From a virus: a stretch of 20,151 nt of DNA. The notes below the pieces were generated by a model. That model made no database searches, was not told the DNA's origin, and saw only the letters and a program-made list of their open reading frames with translations. Both the position numbers and the translations under genes were made by a program. Numbering within the stretch: the stretch's first letter is position 1; every line of letters starts with the position of its first letter. The stretch is from the IMG/VR virus record IMGVR_UViG_3300042430_000217, positions 1 through 20,151 of that record; one strand, given 5' to 3'. This document shows positions 1,803 to 17,111 of the stretch, one piece after another.

Positions 1803-4157
1803 TTATTCAAATCTTGCTCTATTCTGTATTTCACTTTCTCTTTGCTGCGCGTCTTCAATATCACTTTGAACTACATAAGCGCGAACAGTTCCACCCCCAC
1901 CGCCATTACCACCACCACCTGTATTTCCACCCCCACCGCCACCGCCGGTATTTGGTGGAGTGCCACCGCCTGTAGTTGGCATTGATCCACCGCTTCCGCT
2001 ACCACCACCGGTATTTGGTGGCGTTCCACCACCGCCCGTATCAGGAACAGGAACAGAATCACCTTGTGAATTAATTTCTTGAATTGCATTTTTAGTTTGC
2101 AATACAACCGCAGCCGTACTTAATGCTGCACTAATAGTATTAATTGCAGTCCAAGGCAAACCACCTGTAATCCAAAATGTTGCGACCGCCTTTGCATTTG
2201 CAATAGCATTATTAGCCCAAATCATTGCAACTGCTGCTGCTTTCTCAATAATTAATCCGGCAATAACAGTTGACTTATTTTTTTTATTTACTTGTTGTAA
2301 TAAACTACCAAATTGTTGAACTACTTGTAATTTTGCTATTTCAATTTCTTTTTTAGCAACATAAGCCTGTAATTCAATATTTTTCATATTGGCATTATGT
2401 TCTTTATTTATTCTTTCAATTTCCTTAGCATTACCTTTGGCATTATTTATTTTTAATTTATATGCAGCTTCTTCAATTTCAATAGAATTTTTTACCCACG
2501 CTTCAGATCCAACTATTAATGCTTTTTGCTGCGCTTGTAAAATATCTAATTCTTCTTCTAACCCTTTCTTTACAATTTCATTTTTACTTTTTTGTGCTTC
2601 AGCTTCAGATGCATCAATTAAATCCTTTTTAATTTTAGCCTGTTCTTCTTGTGATAATTTTATAAATTCTTTATCTTCTTCTAATTCTTTTATATTTTTT
2701 TCAAGTTCAGCTAATCTTTCTGCTTCTGCTCTTTCATTATCATCTTTAATTGCAGCAATTCTAATGTCTTTAATTTTCTCATTAAATGCATCAAGATTAT
2801 CTTGTTCTTCTTCTTGCTTTTTATCCCTATCTTCTTTTGCCTTTTTTTCTAATTCAATTTTTTCAGCTTCATATGCTTCATTATTAAGTTTAATTAATTC
2901 ATCTTTAACTTTTTGGCTTACTTTTAATTGCTCTATTTCTGCATCCTTAGCAGTCTTATCAATTTCTAATTGTTTTAATGCTTTATCATTTTCATCTGCA
3001 AGTAATGCTTTATTCTTTTCATTCTGCAAATCAATAAGCATTTTATTTGCCGTCTTAGTATCTTCTTCAACTTTTTTATTAGCTTCATCACGATCCTTTT
3101 GTGATTTCTCATTTGTCTTTTTAGTTTCTTCTGCGCTTTTCTTATTATAGTCAGCAGTTAAAACTAATTTCTCGTTATTTAAATCTTTCCATTTTTTAGC
3201 ATCTTCACCATATAGCTTTCCACTCGCATCAACTTTTGTTTTTAATACGGCTAAATCATTATTAATTAATTCGGTTCTTTTCTTATAAATTTCTGATTCT
3301 TGCCCACCCTGTGCAGATAATAATTTAATATCCCTTTCAATCTGCTCATTTCTTAATTTAGATGAAGCGGTTAAACTTTCTATATTTCTTTTAGCTTGAC
3401 TTGTAATACCAACAAAGTCTGTAAATTGTTCTACTAATGAACCAACGCTTTTAGCAAATGCACCAAATGGACTTTTTTTAATCCAATCAGAAATAGCGTC
3501 GAAATTAGCAATTACAGATCCTAATAAAACCACTAATGCACCGATTCCTGTTGCTACTATTGCACCTTTTAAAACTTTAAATCCAACGCTTGTTTCTACA
3601 ACCGCAATTCCAAACGCTTTTTGAATAACCGCAGCCGTTTTAGTAGCTGCATTATTTAAGTTCATATACGTTGTACTTGCTCGTATCTGTGTACCTAAGT
3701 TTGTAAAGCTATCGATCGAATCACCTAATGCGTTTAAGCCCTGTGATAAAGCCATTGCCGCATTTACTTTTAATAAAGCCGCTTCTACGTTTTTATTCTC
3801 TTTACCAAATAAAGCCATTGCACCCTGTAAGGCACTAAATCCACCCGCTACTCCGGACAATGCACCCGCAACCGCTTTAAACTTTGCATCCGGATTAAAG
3901 GCATCTGTTAAAGCCTTAGCATCACCGATACGATCTTTTAATTCAGCCGCACGTTTAGCAGCATTGATTGCTTCCTTTGATGTAGCACCAAATTTATCAG
4001 CCATAATAGCAACGTTTGCGGTTGCTTCTTTTAGCTGCGTTCTTAAACTCTTTACCGAATCATCTGTTGCCTCAAATGCTTTGTCTAATTTTTGAACTTC
4101 TGCGGTTGCCTGCGCGGCGTCGGTGGTTACCTTTATACCAATTATTTCGTCTGCCAT
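1803..4157 (-). CDS. Tail tape measure protein
   Basis: A 784-residue protein with tape measure layout. An Ala-rich helical N-terminal domain (1-195) precedes a hydrophobic segment (about 199-219, GAIVATGIGALVVLLGSVI). A long Lys/Glu coiled coil follows (about 255-620), then a second hydrophobic Ala-rich region near 625-695, a Gly/Pro-rich linker (about 701-757) and a short C-terminal motif beginning RAYVVQSDIEDAQQRESEI that is common at the end of Bacteroidetes phage tape measures. It would set tail length and probably take part in DNA passage through the envelope. Its ATG overlaps the stop of the upstream tail gene (TAATG at 4155-4159), implying translational coupling. A plus-strand frame of 253 codons inside it is antisense to the coiled coil and not a gene. 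Confidence 0.85.
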   Translation of the reverse strand: MADEIIGIKVTTDAAQATAEVQKLDKAFEATDDSVKSLRTQLKEATANVAIMADKFGATSKEAINAAKRAAELKDRIGDAKALTDAFNPDAKFKAVAGALSGVAGGFSALQGAMALFGKENKNVEAALLKVNAAMALSQGLNALGDSIDSFTNLGTQIRASTTYMNLNNAATKTAAVIQKAFGIAVVETSVGFKVLKGAIVATGIGALVVLLGSVIANFDAISDWIKKSPFGAFAKSVGSLVEQFTDFVGITSQAKRNIESLTASSKLRNEQIERDIKLLSAQGGQESEIYKKRTELINNDLAVLKTKVDASGKLYGEDAKKWKDLNNEKLVLTADYNKKSAEETKKTNEKSQKDRDEANKKVEEDTKTANKMLIDLQNEKNKALLADENDKALKQLEIDKTAKDAEIEQLKVSQKVKDELIKLNNEAYEAEKIELEKKAKEDRDKKQEEEQDNLDAFNEKIKDIRIAAIKDDNERAEAERLAELEKNIKELEEDKEFIKLSQEEQAKIKKDLIDASEAEAQKSKNEIVKKGLEEELDILQAQQKALIVGSEAWVKNSIEIEEAAYKLKINNAKGNAKEIERINKEHNANMKNIELQAYVAKKEIEIAKLQVVQQFGSLLQQVNKKNKSTVIAGLIIEKAAAVAMIWANNAIANAKAVATFWITGGLPWTAINTISAALSTAAVVLQTKNAIQEINSQGDSVPVPDTGGGGTPPNTGGGSGSGGSMPTTGGGTPPNTGGGGGGGNTGGGGNGGGGGTVRAYVVQSDIEDAQQRESEIQNRARFE
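1887..2057 (-). repeat. Low-complexity Gly/Pro/Thr-coding repeats in the tape measure gene
   Basis: This stretch is a degenerate triplet array rich in CCA, CCG and CCC on the plus strand. It encodes runs of glycine broken by two units of the form GGGTPPNTGGG. It links the hydrophobic part of the tape measure to the conserved C-terminal RAYVV motif. Its GC content is visibly above the surrounding coding DNA. Repeat slippage could change its length between related phages. Confidence 0.8.
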
Positions 4158-6232
4158 TAATTCGTGTTTATTACTTTTAATAAATTAACCTGTGTAGTTT
4201 TATACTCCATAGGATTATATCCGTCTACCTTATTAAGCCTAAATAAAATTCCATTGATCCATACATATTTACTAAAATCTAAATTGTAAATATCTAACTC
4301 ATTTAAATAAACTTTACAACTTAATAACTTACTTTCCATATCTGTAATTTCTAAAAGATATGGCTTATGATATGTATTAAATAGATTATTAGTTGGATAT
4401 GTAGTTGCAGGAAATTGTAATTCCTTAGGTGCGCCAAAGTTTATATCAATTGTAGGATTTGCAGGATCATCTAAGTGTCCCGCATATCCGTATGAAGTTA
4501 AAGTTGCTAAAATAGAACCACCACCACCGCCGCCTGAATCACTTCTTATATGCCAACTTGATACACCTGTGATTTTCTTAGCCATCAAAATACGAATAAC
4601 GCTATCCATTGGATCTTCTTGTGTATTATTATTTGATAGTTTATAAATTTCACTATGATATTTATCTTGACCTGTATGCAATCTTAATACAGAAGGCGCA
4701 AATATAATCTGCGTTGATGCTGTTTCTTTTACGAAATCAAATTCAGAATCATAAATAAAATCCCCGTATGATTGACCATATTTTTTTAAATAGTTGTCAT
4801 TATAATAATCGGAATCAGTGCTATATCTATAAGCGTAATATCTTGCATTTAATTGCGACATTGGTTTAATAGATATACTTGCATTCATATCTATTTTTTG
4901 CGACCAATCTAAACTATTAGTAACGGCATCTGAATAGAAGTCAATATATGGCGCTATGTTTATTTGTTTCTCATTTATATTATCCTGATAAACGTACAAA
5001 TTAAACATTTTACAAACAGACAAAAAGAAATCCTTTTGGAATATACCTTTTGGCAAGTTATCATTTATTGATATTGTACCATTATAAACAACGCTTGCTA
5101 ACTGCGCAGCTAATTGGTTAAAAGTAAAGTTTGCACTTGATACGCTTACAATATAAGTATTAGCCGTTACAGGAACGCTTATTTCTATTCTAACTTGGTT
5201 TGTATTAGATATATTACCCGTCCAATCTAAGTTAAAAGTAAAAGGATTGTTTGCAGAAATTGTTGTTTGCGTTAATGTTTGAACCGCTACGCCTGCAACG
5301 TATAAGGTCGCATTAATAGATGAAGCCGCATCCGTTTGATAAACACCGGTTATTGAAGCCATTGCTCTAACCGTCTTTGTGCCATCAGTATAAGTAAATA
5401 TGCTCTTACTTCCATTTTCCGTAAAGTAAAGTAAAGTCGTATTATCAAAAGGTATATCAATGTTTCGTGCCGTTGGGGTATTACTATTTAATATTGTTTT
5501 TGTTGCACTAATTGTGCCTAAAATAAACCTGTCATTTGTTCCCTGAATACCTTGCGCATTATTAGGGATTATTAATTTTTTAAAAAAATCAGTATTAAAG
5601 AAATCACAATTTAAAGTATAAGAAGTCCCTTCAAATATTTTTTCAATATATTGCTTTACATAAAGCGCAGGTCTAAAAGCTGAAACGTGGAAGTCATCTT
5701 TATTTGTTGATACGTCTCCATAATCAATTAAAGGATAATAATAACCCGATCCTGTAATACTATTCCAACTATTTTGAATTGAAGTTACATTCCAAGTATG
5801 GTTATATTCGCTGAAGTCTAAATCCTCTAAACGCTTGTTTCCTAACTCTGTAATAAATCCACCTAATTCTCCAAATACGGCGCACTGATATTGAATGACA
5901 TTATTATTGATCACTATTTCAAGCATACGAATAACGCCCTTAAATATTTGTATCTTATCAATATAAACCTCGCACTTTGCAGCCTGTGAAGGCGTAAAGT
6001 TTGTATTTACATTAGGCAAATCCATATTATGTTCGCTTGCCATTCCTAAGTCAAAAGCAAACCCTAATATTTTATTGTTCTTAGCGGTTGCCGGTATTGT
6101 AATTGTTTTACTAAATGATGTATTGCGACTTCCAAAATCACGGACGTCATCAATAGTATAAGTAAAGTCTGCACTAATATCCTGCAATAAATCAATTAAT
6201 TGATCTTCGACATATATTTCAGTTCTTATCAT
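4157..6232 (-). CDS. Large tail protein, probable tail tip/baseplate component
   Basis: A 691-residue protein starting MIRTEIYVEDQLIDLLQDI. The first 100 residues (SFSKTITIPATAKNNKIL, residues about 38-55) have the pattern of structural proteins found beside tape measure genes in Bacteroidetes siphophages. The rest is beta-rich with many Asn, Thr and Tyr, which suits an extracellular virion protein. A glycine run near residue 565 (SGGGGGGS) probably links two domains. The C-terminus returns to a folded domain (LEITDMESKLLSCKVYL and WINGILFRLNKVDGYNP). The gene is coupled by TAATG overlaps to both neighbours. No enzymatic motif is visible. Role is inferred from size, composition and position; a tail hub or receptor-binding subunit are both possible. 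Confidence 0.6.
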   Translation of the reverse strand: MIRTEIYVEDQLIDLLQDISADFTYTIDDVRDFGSRNTSFSKTITIPATAKNNKILGFAFDLGMASEHNMDLPNVNTNFTPSQAAKCEVYIDKIQIFKGVIRMLEIVINNNVIQYQCAVFGELGGFITELGNKRLEDLDFSEYNHTWNVTSIQNSWNSITGSGYYYPLIDYGDVSTNKDDFHVSAFRPALYVKQYIEKIFEGTSYTLNCDFFNTDFFKKLIIPNNAQGIQGTNDRFILGTISATKTILNSNTPTARNIDIPFDNTTLLYFTENGSKSIFTYTDGTKTVRAMASITGVYQTDAASSINATLYVAGVAVQTLTQTTISANNPFTFNLDWTGNISNTNQVRIEISVPVTANTYIVSVSSANFTFNQLAAQLASVVYNGTISINDNLPKGIFQKDFFLSVCKMFNLYVYQDNINEKQINIAPYIDFYSDAVTNSLDWSQKIDMNASISIKPMSQLNARYYAYRYSTDSDYYNDNYLKKYGQSYGDFIYDSEFDFVKETASTQIIFAPSVLRLHTGQDKYHSEIYKLSNNNTQEDPMDSVIRILMAKKITGVSSWHIRSDSGGGGGGSILATLTSYGYAGHLDDPANPTIDINFGAPKELQFPATTYPTNNLFNTYHKPYLLEITDMESKLLSCKVYLNELDIYNLDFSKYVWINGILFRLNKVDGYNPMEYKTTQVNLLKVINTN

Positions 6233-7446
6233 TATCTATATTGACTATTTAAATATTTACCAACTTCTATTTCTAAATCAAAATTAAATAACCCGTCTGC
6301 TATTTGATATTTATATTGATAGTTTGTATTCCTTATTGTGATAGGGAAAAACGCACCTTGCACTTCCATATAAACTATTGGCGAAGCTACTAATTGAGCA
6401 AGCCACGCATAGTCTTGATCATCAAGCCAATCAGCCGTTAGATTATAATAATCCGAATGCTGAATAGCAAAGTTATACGTTGTTTCATTATACTTATTGT
6501 AAGTATCTATATTGGTCATTTGACCATTTGATAATTGATAAGGATTTCGTCTGTATGAAGTCCTTTGAAATTCAGATCTTCGCCTATTGACAAGCCTGAA
6601 TGCCATTGTATCATATCCCCCAAGTCGGTTAAGAAAGTGAAGGTTATATTGTCTGTACTTAGGGTTACATACTTGCCTGAATCGTAATACCCTTGTAACG
6701 GCTGCACCAAGCGTAATATAAACATTGTATCCATAAGTTGATTGTGTAATAATATCAGATCCTGCCCACGTATTAATTGCCGCAGCTTGAAAATTAAATA
6801 AATTAAATTCTCCTGCCATAGTTAAACCGCCACTAACCGCAGTTCCAAAAGTCCCGTCTTCATTCGTAGGTTGCACCCAAAGTTTATATGCGCCGCCTGT
6901 AATTTTTAAGAATGTAATAAAGAATTGATCCCCGTATTCAATCGTAATATCTGAATTGTCGCGGTCGCTTAACCAATCGTCTGTATAATTTTCAATCAAT
7001 AAATTATCATAGTAATTTGATAGCACCAAAGGAACGTTTCCATTCTCTGTAAATATATCACCGAATAAAGGTGAATAATAATTATAAGCCGAATAACTCC
7101 CTGAAGCTAAGTTAGTTACAACCGCACCGCTAACTTCTTCACCTATCCTTACTTGATAGTCTACTTTTATTTTATTATTAGAAGCTACTAATACGCTGCC
7201 ACCTGAAGGTTCAAAGTAATTAGTAACGTATGCGCGCACCATTGGCGAAGCGTTAAAAACTCCATAGCTACCTTCCGCACTTGGCGAAGGATATATTTTA
7301 TTTCTACTAACCTGTGCGCCATCTATGTAAACGTCATAAACGAACTTAAAGTTTGTAACCCCTACGTTTGTAGATGAAGCCACAAACCAAAGGTCTTCGT
7401 GCATACTCGGATAAGTTGCCGGTGTACTATTTATTGTTATAGCCAT
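6232..7446 (-). CDS. Tail protein, probable distal-tail-like structural component
   Basis: A 404-residue beta-rich protein starting MAITINSTPATYPSMHEDLW. Such an N-terminus, with STPATY and LWFVASS, recurs in tail proteins of Bacteroidetes phages in my experience. The middle has many aromatic residues (SAYNYYSPLFGD), and an Arg/Tyr-rich stretch (FRLVNRRRSEFQRTSYRRNP, near residues 282-301) lies before the C-terminal domain. The C-terminus (GLFNFDLEIEVGKYLNSQY) resembles a closing beta-sandwich strand pair. The start overlaps the preceding gene by 20 bp and the stop overlaps the next start as TAATG, so the tail genes form a translationally coupled block. No signal peptide or catalytic motif is seen. 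The exact tail role is not determined. Confidence 0.55.
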   Translation of the reverse strand: MAITINSTPATYPSMHEDLWFVASSTNVGVTNFKFVYDVYIDGAQVSRNKIYPSPSAEGSYGVFNASPMVRAYVTNYFEPSGGSVLVASNNKIKVDYQVRIGEEVSGAVVTNLASGSYSAYNYYSPLFGDIFTENGNVPLVLSNYYDNLLIENYTDDWLSDRDNSDITIEYGDQFFITFLKITGGAYKLWVQPTNEDGTFGTAVSGGLTMAGEFNLFNFQAAAINTWAGSDIITQSTYGYNVYITLGAAVTRVLRFRQVCNPKYRQYNLHFLNRLGGYDTMAFRLVNRRRSEFQRTSYRRNPYQLSNGQMTNIDTYNKYNETTYNFAIQHSDYYNLTADWLDDQDYAWLAQLVASPIVYMEVQGAFFPITIRNTNYQYKYQIADGLFNFDLEIEVGKYLNSQYR

Positions 7447-12417: not shown

Positions 12418-12487
12418 AGCGGCAGGGTGGTATTGCACCCCTTCTTTAGTCTGGAAGACTAACGCATTACTTTTATGCTTCTGCCGC
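12418..12487 (-). tRNA. tRNA-Gly(TCC)-like RNA with noncanonical D and T arms
   Basis: The minus strand folds as a 70-nt cloverleaf. The acceptor is GCGGCAG (12487-12481) pairing with CTGCCGC (12425-12419). The D stem is GCAT/ATGC with a 7-nt loop. The anticodon stem is TTAGT/ACTAA with loop CTTCCAG, giving anticodon TCC for glycine. The T region reads GGTGCAATACC, near the GGTTCRANNCC consensus. The discriminator is T. Odd points: position 8 is A, the D loop lacks GG, T55 is G, CCA is not encoded, and the T stem needs either mismatches or a 6-nt loop. The 5' 15 nt overlap the end of the mom-like gene. It could be a functional divergent tRNA, a decoy or a decayed gene. Confidence 0.55.
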
Positions 12488-13177
12488 TTGTTGTCTTTCT
12501 GCCAAAGTTACTTTATTTCCTTTATACATCCCCGCACCAAGTTCATCTATCTTAGAAAATGGAATTACAGGAACTGCTATTTTACAGGTTTTGTCAATCA
12601 AATAAATATACCTAAGCTGAAAGCCTTTAATTTTTTGCCACCCAATATGCTCTGTATCCAAATATTTTTTCCAATTCCCGTACTTATTCATTATAGTTTT
12701 ACTTGACTTTATAGTCATAGAATGAATCTTTTTTCCATTAGGCAACAGAAATAGATCACTATTTTCTTTTATTAAAGTCAAATTAAACCCGCTTGCCCTG
12801 TATATAGTTCCATCCCCGCAATCACATCCATCTGAATAAGATAAAATCCACTTTATATTAGGTGCATTTTTTTTAATTAGCTTTATACTAATTGCAATGC
12901 ATCTGCTTTCACTATACTTTGGCAAATATTCATCAAATGCCATTCTATTTAATTCTAAATAATCGTGCCAATTTGTATTTTCAACTAAGCCAATTGTTTT
13001 GCTTTTATCTAAACTTGATCCATAGCTAAGAACCCCGTGTAATTTTTCATCTAAAAAGCACCCAAAATGTAACTTACTATTAGGCACTACCTTGCCTGAA
13101 TAATGATTAATTTTAATAAATTCATTAGCAATCTTGCTCGGTATAACCTTAACAATTATTTCCTTTGCTCTGCCCAT
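12473..13177 (-). CDS. mom: Mom-family adenine hypermodification protein
   Basis: A 234-residue GNAT-fold enzyme of the phage Mu Mom type, which converts adenine in phage DNA to N6-(methylcarbamoyl)adenine and so blocks many restriction enzymes. Family segments are NHYSGK (residues 24-29), HFGCFLDEKLHGVLSYGSS (37-55), LELNRMAF (74-81), SESR (89-92), KWILSYSDG (109-117) and GDGTIYRASGF (121-131). The C-terminal RYIYLIDK and PVIPFSK are also as expected. Length matches Mu Mom. The start overlaps the ParB-like gene by 22 bp, so both are probably coupled. In Mu, mom is under tight control by Com; no Com-like zinc protein is seen beside it. The end overlaps a tRNA-like RNA. Confidence 0.9.
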   Translation of the reverse strand: MGRAKEIIVKVIPSKIANEFIKINHYSGKVVPNSKLHFGCFLDEKLHGVLSYGSSLDKSKTIGLVENTNWHDYLELNRMAFDEYLPKYSESRCIAISIKLIKKNAPNIKWILSYSDGCDCGDGTIYRASGFNLTLIKENSDLFLLPNGKKIHSMTIKSSKTIMNKYGNWKKYLDTEHIGWQKIKGFQLRYIYLIDKTCKIAVPVIPFSKIDELGAGMYKGNKVTLAERQQAAEA

Positions 13178-13746
13178 TGCATTACGATTAAATATAAAGC
13201 GTTACCATTTGAATTTTCATTGCCCATTGTTTCAGCGTATTTATATTCCTCTGTTCTTTTGATTTCCTCAATAGCATTTTTTATCTGCTCTGCCTGTTCA
13301 TCTGCCAAAGTGAAAGTCATTTGTTGAAATGGCGACTTATCCCCGTTCGGTAAACTAAAATCTTCACCCAAGTCTTCAACATTACTAAACCCGATTATAT
13401 CAACTCCCCAATCTGTAAGTTCTTCAGAATCCCAATTATTAGCCAAATCTGACCAATCCCATTCACCGAAACTTGCATTGTCTTTTACTATAAATTGTTT
13501 TTGCTGATCCTCTGTCCAATCAACTATTTCAATTGCAACCTCTGTATGACCTGCTTCTTTAATTGCTTTTAGACGCATATTCCCACCAAGTACAACCATA
13601 TCTTTATTAACTACAATAGGGCGGACGTTTAACATATCAGGAAATTCCTGTATTGACTTTACAAGTTTTCTAAACTTATCGTCTTTAATTAAACGGGGAT
13701 TGTTCGGGTTAGGTTTAACTTCCGCAATCTTTACTTTTTTTATCAT
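13156..13746 (-). CDS. ParB-like nuclease-fold protein
   Basis: A 196-residue protein with an N-terminal ParB/sulfiredoxin-like domain. The key features are KPNPNNPRLI (residues 11-20), with the NPR motif, RPIVVNKDMVVLGGNMRLKA (42-61), with GGxxR, and EAGHTEVAIEIVDW. A second region (78-120) with ASFGEWDWSDLANNWD is typical of phage ParB-like proteins that accompany or are fused to DNA-modifying enzymes. The C-terminal part (ADEQAEQIKNAIEEIKR) is helical. It is not a partition protein by context, since no ParA is present. The coupling to the Mom gene suggests a role in DNA modification or a nuclease/NTP-binding role in packaging. Length is less than in ParB-methylase fusions. Confidence 0.8.
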   Translation of the reverse strand: MIKKVKIAEVKPNPNNPRLIKDDKFRKLVKSIQEFPDMLNVRPIVVNKDMVVLGGNMRLKAIKEAGHTEVAIEIVDWTEDQQKQFIVKDNASFGEWDWSDLANNWDSEELTDWGVDIIGFSNVEDLGEDFSLPNGDKSPFQQMTFTLADEQAEQIKNAIEEIKRTEEYKYAETMGNENSNGNALYLIVMQWAEQRK

Positions 13747-14124: not shown

Positions 14125-14530
14125 TATCAATTTGTTCAAGTTTCTTTTGCGCCCAAGCAACGCCTTCATCACCACCCCAAGCCAACCACATCAAAGCGCC
14201 GCAATCCTTTTTAGGATCACCTTTTGAATTTTCTCTATGCCTTTCAAAAGATGACATCCTTGCAATCGTGTCCCTTGTAATATTTTCACCCTTCGCTAAT
14301 TGATTTGCACGCGCCCATCCAACAGGCGTTCCGCATTTACGATCATATTGTTCTCTTATATTGATTGCTCTTTGTGCGTTTACTCTTGCTGCCTGTGGGT
14401 AATCATTATAACTATCCACCATTGAAACCCTTATTGCAGCCCATACGCTTTGCGCCTTTTCTTCGGTTTCATAGATGCAAGCACCTGATCCTATTCTATA
14501 TTTCCCGTTTGAACATTTAATTACCGGCAT
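14108..14530 (-). CDS. Conserved two-part phage protein of unknown function
   Basis: A 140-residue protein. The first 33 residues (KCSNGKYRIGSGACIYETEE at 5-24) form a small motif with Cys 6 and Cys 18 that is often found as a terminal module in Bacteroidetes phage proteins. Residues 42-135 hold a second conserved unit, DYPQAARVNAQRAINIR, then CGTPVGWARANQLAKGE, ITRDTIARMSSFERHREN and CGALMWLAWGGDEGVAWAQ. This unit occurs alone or fused to other proteins in many phages as I recall; I cannot name a proven activity. Its start overlaps the GT-B gene by 14 bp. Packaging or structural role is possible from position near HNH and terminase. Confidence 0.55.
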   Translation of the reverse strand: MPVIKCSNGKYRIGSGACIYETEEKAQSVWAAIRVSMVDSYNDYPQAARVNAQRAINIREQYDRKCGTPVGWARANQLAKGENITRDTIARMSSFERHRENSKGDPKKDCGALMWLAWGGDEGVAWAQKKLEQIDNEKAR

Positions 14531-15524
14531 TGTCTATCAATTTACTATAAATAGCAAACCTGTGCTTATTTACTTCGTGCAAATTAAAGTTCTTATTGCA
14601 ATAATCGTACAAGGCGTTCCCGTAATGCTCGCGCGCTTGCCTATCATTGACTAACATCTTGATCCAATAATACCAATCTTTTTGACTATTGACGTGGCAG
14701 GCGGGATAAAATCCCTTGTACGGATGCACGTTGCTAACTATTGCAGGATTCTTTTTTGATGCCGTTTCTAATACCTTCAAATTAGACTTCATTGAATTAA
14801 ACTTAGAATCGATTAAAGGAATTAGACTTATATCAGAATCACAATAAGCCGCCATATATTCCGTAACTTGATTATAGTTATAAATTGTAGGATTTAATTT
14901 TAAGCCATTTGTGAAGGCTGCAATCATTCCGTCCCAAATAGGTTTCTCTTGTTCATTATACCCTGCTATGATTGTACGAACGGGGAAATTAATTCTCTTC
15001 ATTGGATTGCGTAATATTTCCAAATCCTTTCCGTGCGTTCCTGATCCTGACCAAAATAGCCTAATTAGATCCGAATGCTTTTTATCTAAAAGGAATTGTT
15101 CCTCGCCGTATGGAATTGCATTCGGAACTATTTCCACGTTTTGATTGTATTGATATATTTCCTCTGCTAATCTTTCGTGCGTACAGGTGCAAAGGTCTGC
15201 TATCTGTATCCAATTTATAATTTGTTGCGGCACGCTATTTAGAATATATCTTTCGTAAAGTATATGCGAAGCGTCTAAATGCCAATAGTCGTCATTATCA
15301 ACTATTAATTTAAACCCGTACTTTTTTCGCCATTCGATCATTTGATCAGGTGTAATATTGGCAAGCATCCTGTTCAGGATCACAATATCATATTTCCCTT
15401 CAAAAGTTTCTTCGCTTATTGTATCCGTCATTAAGCAATAATCTTTTTTCATATTGACTATTGGCATAATGATCCTGTGATAAGCTACTCCACTTGTCTT
15501 GCTCGTAATTGCTAAAATTCGCAT
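14517..15524 (-). CDS. GT-B fold glycosyltransferase (GT1/GT4-like)
   Basis: A 335-residue protein with two Rossmann-like halves. The N-terminal half begins MRILAITSKTSGVAYHRI, with VDNDDYWHL (residues 75-83), and ends in EIVPNAI (131-137). The C-terminal half holds LFWSGSGTHGKDLEIL (156-171) and the donor-binding segment SNLKVLETASKKNPAIVS (247-264), which matches the usual xxKxxExxxxGxPxIxS pattern of GT4 enzymes, although the Gly is replaced by Lys-Asn. It would transfer a sugar from a nucleotide donor to an unknown acceptor. It follows the GT2 gene with a 13-bp overlap, and both follow the LpxA-like gene. The cassette suggests glycan or lipopolysaccharide alteration, or virion glycosylation. 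Confidence 0.8.
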   Translation of the reverse strand: MRILAITSKTSGVAYHRIIMPIVNMKKDYCLMTDTISEETFEGKYDIVILNRMLANITPDQMIEWRKKYGFKLIVDNDDYWHLDASHILYERYILNSVPQQIINWIQIADLCTCTHERLAEEIYQYNQNVEIVPNAIPYGEEQFLLDKKHSDLIRLFWSGSGTHGKDLEILRNPMKRINFPVRTIIAGYNEQEKPIWDGMIAAFTNGLKLNPTIYNYNQVTEYMAAYCDSDISLIPLIDSKFNSMKSNLKVLETASKKNPAIVSNVHPYKGFYPACHVNSQKDWYYWIKMLVNDRQAREHYGNALYDYCNKNFNLHEVNKHRFAIYSKLIDNAGN

Positions 15525-16186
15525 CTAAGGTTTTTTTCTGTATGGTAAATAGGTTGGTATTTTTCCCAAACCGCCTGCGCCCTTTGTAGGCTCGCGTCTT
15601 TCATTGCTCTATATTCTGTTCCATTACCAACGTCGTGACCAATATGCTCACTTTTTAGATCCGGCAAATAATAATTAGTAAAACCTGCTATGGTAGCCCT
15701 TTCTGCATAATCCCTGTCTTGCATTCCGTATGGATCATATTCTATATTATAACCGCCGATCGTATCAATCAACTCCCTTGTTAAAAAATTATTCCCAAAT
15801 GGCGTATGCGTTTTATGTATTCCGTCAACTAATGGTGGTAAATTTTCTACGCAATGTATGCCAATAATGCCCGTTTTTGACACACGTTTTGAAAACATAA
15901 CCCAATTTTGCAGCCAATTGGTGGGTAATAATATATCATTTGCTAATAAACAAACGCCGTCATATCCTCTTGTCATTCTTAGCCCTGCATTAACTCCCGC
16001 ACCTATCCCTCTTTTATAACCTACATTGCAGTTTGTCCAATTGTATAATTCATAAGGTACTTGATCACTTCCATTGTCTACTAAAAAGCAATCGGCGTCA
16101 TATCCTGAATTATGAAAATTCTGATCAATTACGCGCTTCGTTAAATCGTTTCTATTTAGGGTTAATAAGATTACGGCTATATTCAT
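15512..16186 (-). CDS. GT2 family glycosyltransferase
   Basis: A 224-residue GT-A fold enzyme. The family landmarks are ILLTLNRNDLTKRVIDQ (residues 6-22), FLVDNGS (34-40), NVGYKRGIGAGVNAGLR (54-70), the metal-binding position LLANDILLP (80-88, where the DxD is reduced to AND), and GMQDRDYAERATIAGF (154-169), which carries the likely catalytic base. These match rhamnosyl/glycosyl transferases of GT2. The start overlaps the LpxA-like gene by 35 bp and the end overlaps the GT-B gene, so the three are probably translated together. Likely a sugar transferase acting on a host or phage surface polymer; donor and acceptor are not visible. Confidence 0.85.
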   Translation of the reverse strand: MNIAVILLTLNRNDLTKRVIDQNFHNSGYDADCFLVDNGSDQVPYELYNWTNCNVGYKRGIGAGVNAGLRMTRGYDGVCLLANDILLPTNWLQNWVMFSKRVSKTGIIGIHCVENLPPLVDGIHKTHTPFGNNFLTRELIDTIGGYNIEYDPYGMQDRDYAERATIAGFTNYYLPDLKSEHIGHDVGNGTEYRAMKDASLQRAQAVWEKYQPIYHTEKNLRCEF

Positions 16187-16655
16187 TTGTTCCTATTTTT
16201 CTTGCAGGCACGCCCGCGTATTTACTAAATTCTTCTGTTGCGCCTTTAATGAAAGCACTCGCACCGATCATACAACCGCGTTCTATTGTGGTAAATTGAT
16301 GAAGCACCGCGTTTAATCCAATATTTGAATGTTTATCAATTATAGAATGACCACCTATCTTTGCACCGCAACTTATTGTAACATTATCATTTATTTTACA
16401 ATCGTGTCCAATATGTGCGTGTTTCATTATAAAGCAATTATCCCCTATATATGTTATTTGTTCTGTACCTGCGTCAATGGTAACCAATCCTGTTATTATA
16501 TTGTTATTCCCAATCAATACTTTTCCTAATTGTTTATTCCAATACTTTTTATGTTCTGCCTGATCACCTATAATACAATAAGCGCCAATATAATTATTGT
16601 CGCCTAAGATAACATTGTCGCCAATGATAGCGGTGGGGTGTATAAAATTAGCCAT
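16152..16655 (-). CDS. LpxA-like hexapeptide-repeat acyltransferase
   Basis: A 167-residue left-handed beta-helix protein close in plan to bacterial UDP-N-acetylglucosamine acyltransferase. I chose ATG 16653-16655; the frame extends 5 codons to a TTG. Hexapeptide repeats start at FIHPTAIIGDNVILGDN (residues 4-20). The segment MKHAHIGHDCKINDN (77-91) matches the catalytic LpxA stretch, with His 81 and His 84, where His 84 corresponds to E. coli His 125. His 103 (GGHS) and His 119 (AVLHQF) also match conserved positions. The end GVPARKIGTN (148-157) matches the AxPARxxGxN tail. The LpxA C-terminal helical domain (about 60-90 residues) is missing. It could acylate a nucleotide sugar or another amino sugar. 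Confidence 0.85.
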   Translation of the reverse strand: MANFIHPTAIIGDNVILGDNNYIGAYCIIGDQAEHKKYWNKQLGKVLIGNNNIITGLVTIDAGTEQITYIGDNCFIMKHAHIGHDCKINDNVTISCGAKIGGHSIIDKHSNIGLNAVLHQFTTIERGCMIGASAFIKGATEEFSKYAGVPARKIGTNEYSRNLINPK

Positions 16656-16878
16656 TGTTATTATTTTCAAACCAATTATATAATCTCATAATCATATCAA
16701 ACTTGCAAGCGCCGCACCAAACTGATAAAATAAAGTTTGCGTCTAAATAAGTCCGATATATATGCTCGTACATTTTTAATTCATTCAGATCAAGGTTTCT
16801 AATATAACCATTCTTTGCACTTTCATAATTACTAATATTAGCAATTAGCCATTCTTTATGTTCTTGTTTTATTTCCAT
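16648..16878 (-). CDS. Small CxxC protein of unknown function (76 aa)
   Basis: A 76-residue frame. I use ATG 16876-16878 (MEIKQEHKEWLIANISNYES); an upstream GTG at 16890 is less likely. The protein is helical and has the motif VWCGACKFDMIMRLYNWFE (residues 53-71), with Cys 55 and Cys 58. The segment with WCGAC recalls thioredoxin-type or iron-binding motifs but lacks the surrounding fold. It overlaps the membrane-protein gene by 10 bp upstream and the LpxA-like gene by 8 bp downstream, so it is part of the same cassette. I do not recognise a named family. Confidence 0.6.
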   Translation of the reverse strand: MEIKQEHKEWLIANISNYESAKNGYIRNLDLNELKMYEHIYRTYLDANFILSVWCGACKFDMIMRLYNWFENNNNG

Positions 16879-17111
16879 AAATAGTTCCACATTAATTTAG
16901 TTATTATTGGCGCTAAAAATCCCGCTATAAACATAGTCGAAGTTATATTTTGGATTAATTCAGGTAAGAAATAGTGTATTGGTGCAAGCCACGCAGCCAA
17001 ACAACTTCCGCAATTAAAGGGCTTGAAATTGATTCCCCATTTATGGTGCAGGTTATGAATTTCAGTAAAAAATAATGATGCACAGATAGCAGTTAAAATT
17101 GATAAAATCAT
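16869..17111 (-). CDS. Small polytopic membrane protein with CxxC (80 aa)
   Basis: An 80-residue protein with two or three hydrophobic spans: ILSILTAICASLFFTEI (2-18), SCLAAWLAPIHYFLPELI (36-53) and TMFIAGFLAPIITKLMW (59-75). Between the first two is KPFNCGSCLAAW with Cys 34 and Cys 37, a motif that recalls DUF1360-like membrane proteins. The ATG overlaps the stop of the sigma-like gene (ATGA, 17108-17111). It is followed by the CxxC protein, and both precede the LpxA-like and glycosyltransferase genes. It could be a membrane partner of the cassette, a superinfection-exclusion factor or an envelope protein. This is inferred from topology only. Confidence 0.6.
   Translation of the reverse strand: MILSILTAICASLFFTEIHNLHHKWGINFKPFNCGSCLAAWLAPIHYFLPELIQNITSTMFIAGFLAPIITKLMWNYLWK

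Follow-up and report, generated by a model that had tools for sequence, protein, structure and literature searches.

Several described systems resemble parts of the locus considered here, a run of three overlapping genes on the minus strand (positions 14517-16655) of a window that comprises the entire 20,151-base IMG/VR virus record IMGVR_UViG_3300042430_000217. The genes encode an LpxA-like hexapeptide acyltransferase with a short left-handed beta-helix (167 amino acids, aa) and two glycosyltransferases. In LpxA, His125 is catalytic and H122, H144, H160 and K76 have substrate roles (PMC6408518; residue roles also in PMC6820557). Pcryo_0615 of Psychrobacter cryohalolentis (PDB 8e62) is, by the title of its entry, an N-acetyltransferase required for a diacetamido-2,3-dideoxy sugar, and a pathway in which acetyl-coenzyme A (acetyl-CoA) serves to N-acetylate UDP-GlcNAc3NA to UDP-GlcNAc3NAcA has been described in a paper that cites the Psychrobacter work (PMC10622841). 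Among phages, soluble glycosyltransferases encoded by the mycobacteriophages Che8, Corndog and Myrna offer a precedent for glycosylation of the virion (PMC12363180), and GtrABC cassettes contain phage glycosyltransferase genes able to alter the surface glycan. Viral 'lpxA' genes have already been listed among auxiliary genes by two surveys (PMC9529941, PMC10653327), whose entries for them do not distinguish LpxA from acetyltransferases.

Related phages indicate that the LpxA-like gene and the glycosyltransferase gene following it form a swappable two-gene module next to a core glycosyltransferase gene. This module probably builds an acetylated-sugar decoration, which is the best explanation of the locus as a whole. 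No description of a virus-specific acetyltransferase/glycosyltransferase pair was found in the literature. Phage genes that modify glycans are known in general; what is new in this variant is that the acetyltransferases form a clade of their own, viral for the most part, and have glycosyltransferase partners that can be exchanged.

Gene order and co-presence in related phages

The LpxA-like gene (16152..16655, minus strand) begins with ATG; an alternative in-frame TTG start at 16670 would lengthen its product to 172 aa. It is followed on the same strand by a gene for a GT2-like glycosyltransferase of the GT-A type (224 aa, 15512..16186) and by one for a GT-B glycosyltransferase (335 aa, 14517..15524). 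The genes lie and overlap as originally predicted: the end of the LpxA-like gene and the start of the GT2 gene share 35 bases (16152..16186), and the GT2 and GT-B genes share 13. The overlaps continue on both sides, with 8 bases between the LpxA-like gene and its upstream neighbour and 14 between the GT-B gene and the next one. At the LpxA-like/GT-A junction, overlaps of 1-68 bases are found in most divergent relatives. Measured against relatives of 80-97% identity, the median ratio of nonsynonymous to synonymous substitution rates is 0.11 for the LpxA-like gene, 0.07 for GT2 and 0.06 for GT-B, compared with 0.05 for the terminase. These low values mean that the three intact genes are functional, rather than chance open reading frames (ORFs), and are under strong purifying selection.

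That the two glycosyltransferases differ from each other, as had also been proposed, is borne out by their family matches. The GT2 protein matches PF00535 (24.8 bits, above the cut-off of 23.3) and PHROG 2456. At the place where the DXD metal site would be expected it has ANDI, and Asn66 and Asp84 (first-row numbering) are the sole invariant columns of the GT-A alignment A3. The GT-B protein matches PHROG 7162 'glycosyltransferase', as in phage phi92 (210 bits, E 8.7e-62), and its score against the GT4-type Pfam family, 16.3 bits, lies below the cut-off of 27. No membrane segment was found in any of the three enzymes.

All of the close relatives (80 of 80) have the genes in the order LpxA-like, GT2, GT-B. 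The three genes are not one unit, however, as the LpxA-like and GT2 genes vary jointly and GT-B belongs to the core. The distinction is clearest in 30 loci selected by their terminase gene (TerL), each with at least 7 kb upstream of it, so that the cassette itself played no part in the choice. The LpxA-like and GT2 genes are both present in 23 of these phages and both absent from the other seven, with no discordant case, while the GT-B gene and the 80-aa gene at 16648..16890 (minus strand), which forms the left border of the module, occur in all 30. The upstream 80-aa gene is joined directly to GT-B in six of the seven phages that lack the module, and also in L305. In L257 (2549-4372) the module slot has been replaced by a GT-A-like gene (assigned by eye), an S-adenosylmethionine-dependent methyltransferase gene and a weakly glycosyltransferase-like gene. 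The LpxA-like gene was not found elsewhere in the seven module-less records, one of which, at 31.7 kb, is near full length.

The pairing extends to more distant phages. In all 21 representatives sharing less than 80% mutual identity, a GT-A-like gene lies 3' of the LpxA-like gene, with nothing in between in 19 and with an intervening GIY-YIG-like ORF in two, and it overlaps the LpxA-like gene in nearly all of them. The partners themselves are diverse: a scan of 13 gave matches to PF00535 in six and to PHROG 2456 in six, and the rest were assigned by resemblance. In phages resembling that of the window the GT-B gene is found downstream, in others upstream, and it was not detected in some relatives, the largest phages included. 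Among relatives, GT2 identity is bimodal (about 28-36% or 60-99%). In L061-L082 the GT2 slot holds two divergent alleles, of about 224-236 and 193-196 aa and with roughly 30% identity to each other, between similar flanking genes, which indicates gene replacement. The GIY-YIG-like ORFs of L144 and L165 are placed as expected of mobile endonuclease genes.

LpxA-like genes had been thought rare in phages. This no longer holds once environmental contigs are counted, as one scan of IMG/VR returned 381 close relatives and a second at least 457. An annotated phage collection (50,697 records) gave seven weak matches of about 30% identity, several of them on contigs resembling bacterial ones, and these were set aside. 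The sole close match in cellular genomes is a phage contig in a Chitinophagaceae bin; the remaining hits with E <= 1e-21, from 396 Bacteroidota genomes, are proteins of ordinary LpxA length, the best scoring 84 bits. Two cellular matches were rejected as relatives, L085 being an LpxA of the ordinary kind, encoded within an lpxD-lpxC/fabZ-lpxA cluster, and L086 a gamma-carbonic-anhydrase-like protein. Within the data that could be searched the acetyltransferase family is therefore mainly viral, and the pair is carried by abundant uncultured phages, probably of Bacteroidota.

Identity of the 167-aa protein

The protein has three Hexapep stretches (PF00132, 78 bits), and its closest known relative, by sequence, is Pcryo_0615. 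Structure 8e62 is the best match in the PDB, scoring 123.7 bits with the single protein as query and 210 bits with the family profile, compared with 92-132 for LpxA structures, about 56-74 for LpxD and 51-57 for VioB/PglD types; identity to 8e62 is 45% over 156 residues. Maximum-likelihood phylogeny groups 22 phage proteins with 8e62 in a single clade (support 96/98), which lies apart from LpxA (12 rows), LpxD and NeuD. The length class, the E-x-K motif, the catalytic His-Asp, GGH, HQ and the terminal G-x-N are all kept between the phage proteins and Pcryo_0615. The two differ in their surroundings, as the phage enzymes adjoin glycosyltransferase genes rather than genes for a sugar-nucleotide dehydrogenase or aminotransferase. 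The best reading of the 167-aa protein on these grounds is a UDP-sugar acetyltransferase of the Pcryo_0615 type.

The residues of the LpxA active site are retained, as originally claimed. H81, H84, H103 and H119 align with Escherichia coli LpxA H122, H125, H144 and H160. His84 (codon 16404..16406, minus strand), the equivalent of the catalytic His125, is invariant in 43 of 43 phage relatives, as is His119 (codon 16299..16301, minus strand), which is followed by an invariant Gln120 corresponding to LpxA Gln161; H103 is kept in 40 of the 43, and the H81 position is His in 39 and Tyr in four. Glu34-x-Lys36 (16548..16556, minus strand) takes the place of LpxA Asp74-x-Lys76, an equivalence drawn from the residue alignment, the column count being misaligned there for the cellular LpxA L085; K36 is kept in 42 of 43 relatives. 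The equivalents of LpxA D126 and N198 are present as well. The place of the acyl-ruler residue Gly173 is occupied by Ala or Met across the 43 phage proteins (the window has Ala, 8e62 has Met). The central hexapeptide coils are likewise shared with LpxA, and the protein may work by LpxA-like chemistry.

It is nevertheless not LpxA. Among NCBIfam models those for LpxA match best, but at about half the cut-off (PRK05289, 116.3 bits against 226; TIGR01852, 114.4 against 231), so that the protein fails family membership. It ends about 10 residues past the Asn198 equivalent and therefore lacks, as had been noticed originally, the C-terminal helical domain, together with R204 and R205; 36 residues of N-terminal coils, on which the original prediction was silent, are missing relative to LpxA. 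Viral genes labelled 'lpxA' in environmental surveys thus need not be lipid A genes.

Membership in the NeuD/PglD family has to be rated low. The phage protein shares with that family the His-Asp(Glu) catalytic pair and the GxPA(R/K) motif at the end of the beta-helix, but its score is 91.4 bits against a cut-off of 160.8, the best stretch covers only positions 100-202 of the 202 in the profile, and the N-terminal sugar-binding domain is missing. The proposal that the protein might instead group with acetyl-CoA-dependent sugar acetyltransferases is right in substance, the group being that of Pcryo_0615 rather than PglD/NeuD.

Two AlphaFold2 models were not used as evidence for the fold. The one from a shallow alignment matches no beta-helix acyltransferase and is probably wrong-handed; the best match of the one from 44 rows is 8e62, at a TM score of about 0.3-0.4 and a root-mean-square deviation of about 12.

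Proposed pathway and target of the glycan

By combining these results it is possible to propose how the module might work. The LpxA-like and GT2 genes would have been inserted between the core 80-aa gene (16648-16890) and the core GT-B gene. The acetyltransferase would act as a trimer, as members of its family do, with His84 as the general base. The acyl donor would be acetyl-CoA or another short acyl-CoA, and the missing C-terminal domain suggests such a donor rather than an acyl carrier protein. The acceptor would be a UDP-sugar supplied by the host, modified either at a position-3 amine, as with Pcryo_0615, or at a 3-hydroxyl. As the two genes are paired and are lost together, the product is likely to be used by the GT-A enzyme, which would transfer the acetylated sugar, in the cytoplasm, to a glycan or acceptor begun or extended by the core GT-B enzyme. 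The genes, the selection on them, the conserved residues, the place in the tree and the joint presence and loss are observed; the donor, the substrate, the order of these steps and their cytosolic site are what we infer.

Several observations weigh against this picture. An identity of 45% to one solved neighbour does not fix the substrate, 8e62 has Tyr at the site equivalent to LpxA H122, where most of the phage proteins have His, and neither AlphaFold2 alignment gave a usable structure model. The PF01041 aminotransferase and the PF01408 3-dehydrogenase were found in none of 45 phage records, so that either the host supplies the amino-sugar or the enzyme acylates a hydroxyl. For several of the GT-A-like partner genes of other phages the assignment goes by resemblance, as they match no family. 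Many of the TerL-selected phages are close kin, and the seven absences may amount to two events, as six of them look related.

The link to an acylated sugar that the original prediction drew is supported in part, with its virion alternative; the lipid A route is not supported. The glycan could be placed on capsid or tail proteins, and this form of the acetylated-sugar explanation is tentatively favoured, at a likelihood that comes close to even. The enzymes are soluble, no export machinery was found, and all close relatives that were examined have GT-B as a core gene. The lack of an integrase, a GtrA flippase and a membrane segment also leads us to favour slightly a virion protein over a host surface glycan as the target. 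The precedents, however, come from phages unrelated to these, and the account of them in PMC12363180 mentions no acetyltransferase partner where it treats their glycosyltransferases.

A more specific version of virion decoration is improbable. Since the phages carry no amino-sugar genes, the virus-specific clade might use the 3-hydroxyl of ordinary host UDP-GlcNAc and acetyl-CoA to make UDP-3-O-acetyl-GlcNAc, which the partner glycosyltransferase would attach to virion proteins. The pair would be exchanged as a cassette, and related lytic phages would wear different capped glycans.

The somewhat less likely target is the host surface. Late in infection the enzymes might modify repeat units of lipopolysaccharide or capsule on the membrane's inner face, so that siblings could not adsorb or progeny would not be lost to debris. 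Surface polysaccharides are made with the help of sugar acetyltransferases, Pcryo_0615 among them, a Bacteroidota species makes A-LPS via the Wbp pathway (PMC4031482), soluble glycosyltransferases can act on lipid-linked precursors, and a single locus exchanges its GT-A variants, as expected if they match host glycans. On the other hand, the enzymes have no membrane segment, a search of 38 related records, many of which are fragments, gave neither a GtrA flippase scoring over the cut-off nor an integrase, and exclusion benefits a lytic phage less. The same absences set these genes apart from GtrABC cassettes, and superinfection exclusion by Gtr-type serotype conversion, as had been suggested, is accordingly rated low.

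That the protein is a true lipid A enzyme, an LpxA with which the phage would supply or divert UDP-3-O-acyl-GlcNAc, is very unlikely: its catalytic and sugar-site residues and its top NCBIfam matches are those of LpxA, whereas the low score, the missing C-terminal domain with its Arg residues, the missing coils, the separate clade with a sugar N-acetyltransferase as nearest solved relative, and the LpxA that candidate hosts (Chitinophagaceae) encode themselves all oppose it. Equally slight is the chance that the enzymes decorate phage bases together with the neighbouring Mom-like (PF25680, 175 bits) and ParB-N genes 1-2 kb downstream, even with a TET-associated glycosyltransferase (TAGT, PF20691) in the Mom slot of one relative (L084), as most relatives lack Mom and yet keep the cassette, and no base-hydroxylating enzyme was seen in the one relative contig inspected gene by gene.

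If the acetylated-sugar explanation is true, phages common in fresh water carry an enzyme of their own for acetylating sugars, which is matched to a glycosyltransferase and exchanged together with it, and glycan capping is a variable trait of lytic phages. The natural pairs of phages with and without the module, which differ at a clean junction, would allow a direct comparison to establish the identity and location of the glycan.

Lineage and neighbouring genes

The phages are tailed and apparently lytic. No integrase was found in any of the 38 related records searched, many of them incomplete, which suggests a lytic lifestyle. The host is probably a member of the Bacteroidota, on the basis of a 32.9 kb relative contig that sits in a Chitinophagaceae metagenome bin and of one distant match, at 23% identity, between the portal protein of a relative and that of Nonlabens phages P12024S/L. 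The relatives point to a genome size of about 31.6-36 kb. One record of 63,203 bases (L024/L038, IMGVR_UViG_3300043436_001856) contains two similar, non-identical units about 31.65 kb apart and is either two strains merged in assembly or a concatemer.

Nearly all long ORFs of the window are on the minus strand, in one run of overlapping genes. In the order of transcription these are a DnaA-like gene, replication-type genes, a 164-aa gene that by eye resembles a sigma-type regulator, two 80-aa genes and the cassette, followed by a 140-aa gene, HNH, ParB-N, Mom, the terminase and the tail genes. The tail region (1803-7446) and that of relatives include a tape-measure-like 784-aa gene and tail-type genes for which the threshold applied gave no PHROG match, and the lineage is therefore poorly represented among isolated phages.

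Both 80-aa genes upstream of the cassette are core in relatives. The protein of 16648-16890 matches no Pfam or PHROG family and carries a WCGxCK motif close to its C-terminal end. The other (16869..17111, minus strand), which has no Pfam match, encodes a small protein that has a hydrophobic stretch at its N-terminal end and contains an FNCxxCLxxW-like motif, and it is conserved beside the cassette even in distant phages. On the other side of the cassette, the Mom-like gene adjoins the ParB-N-domain gene (12473-13746), and the Mom slot is variable. In the L084 contig, a gene that by eye resembles a Dcm-like methyltransferase lies near TAGT.

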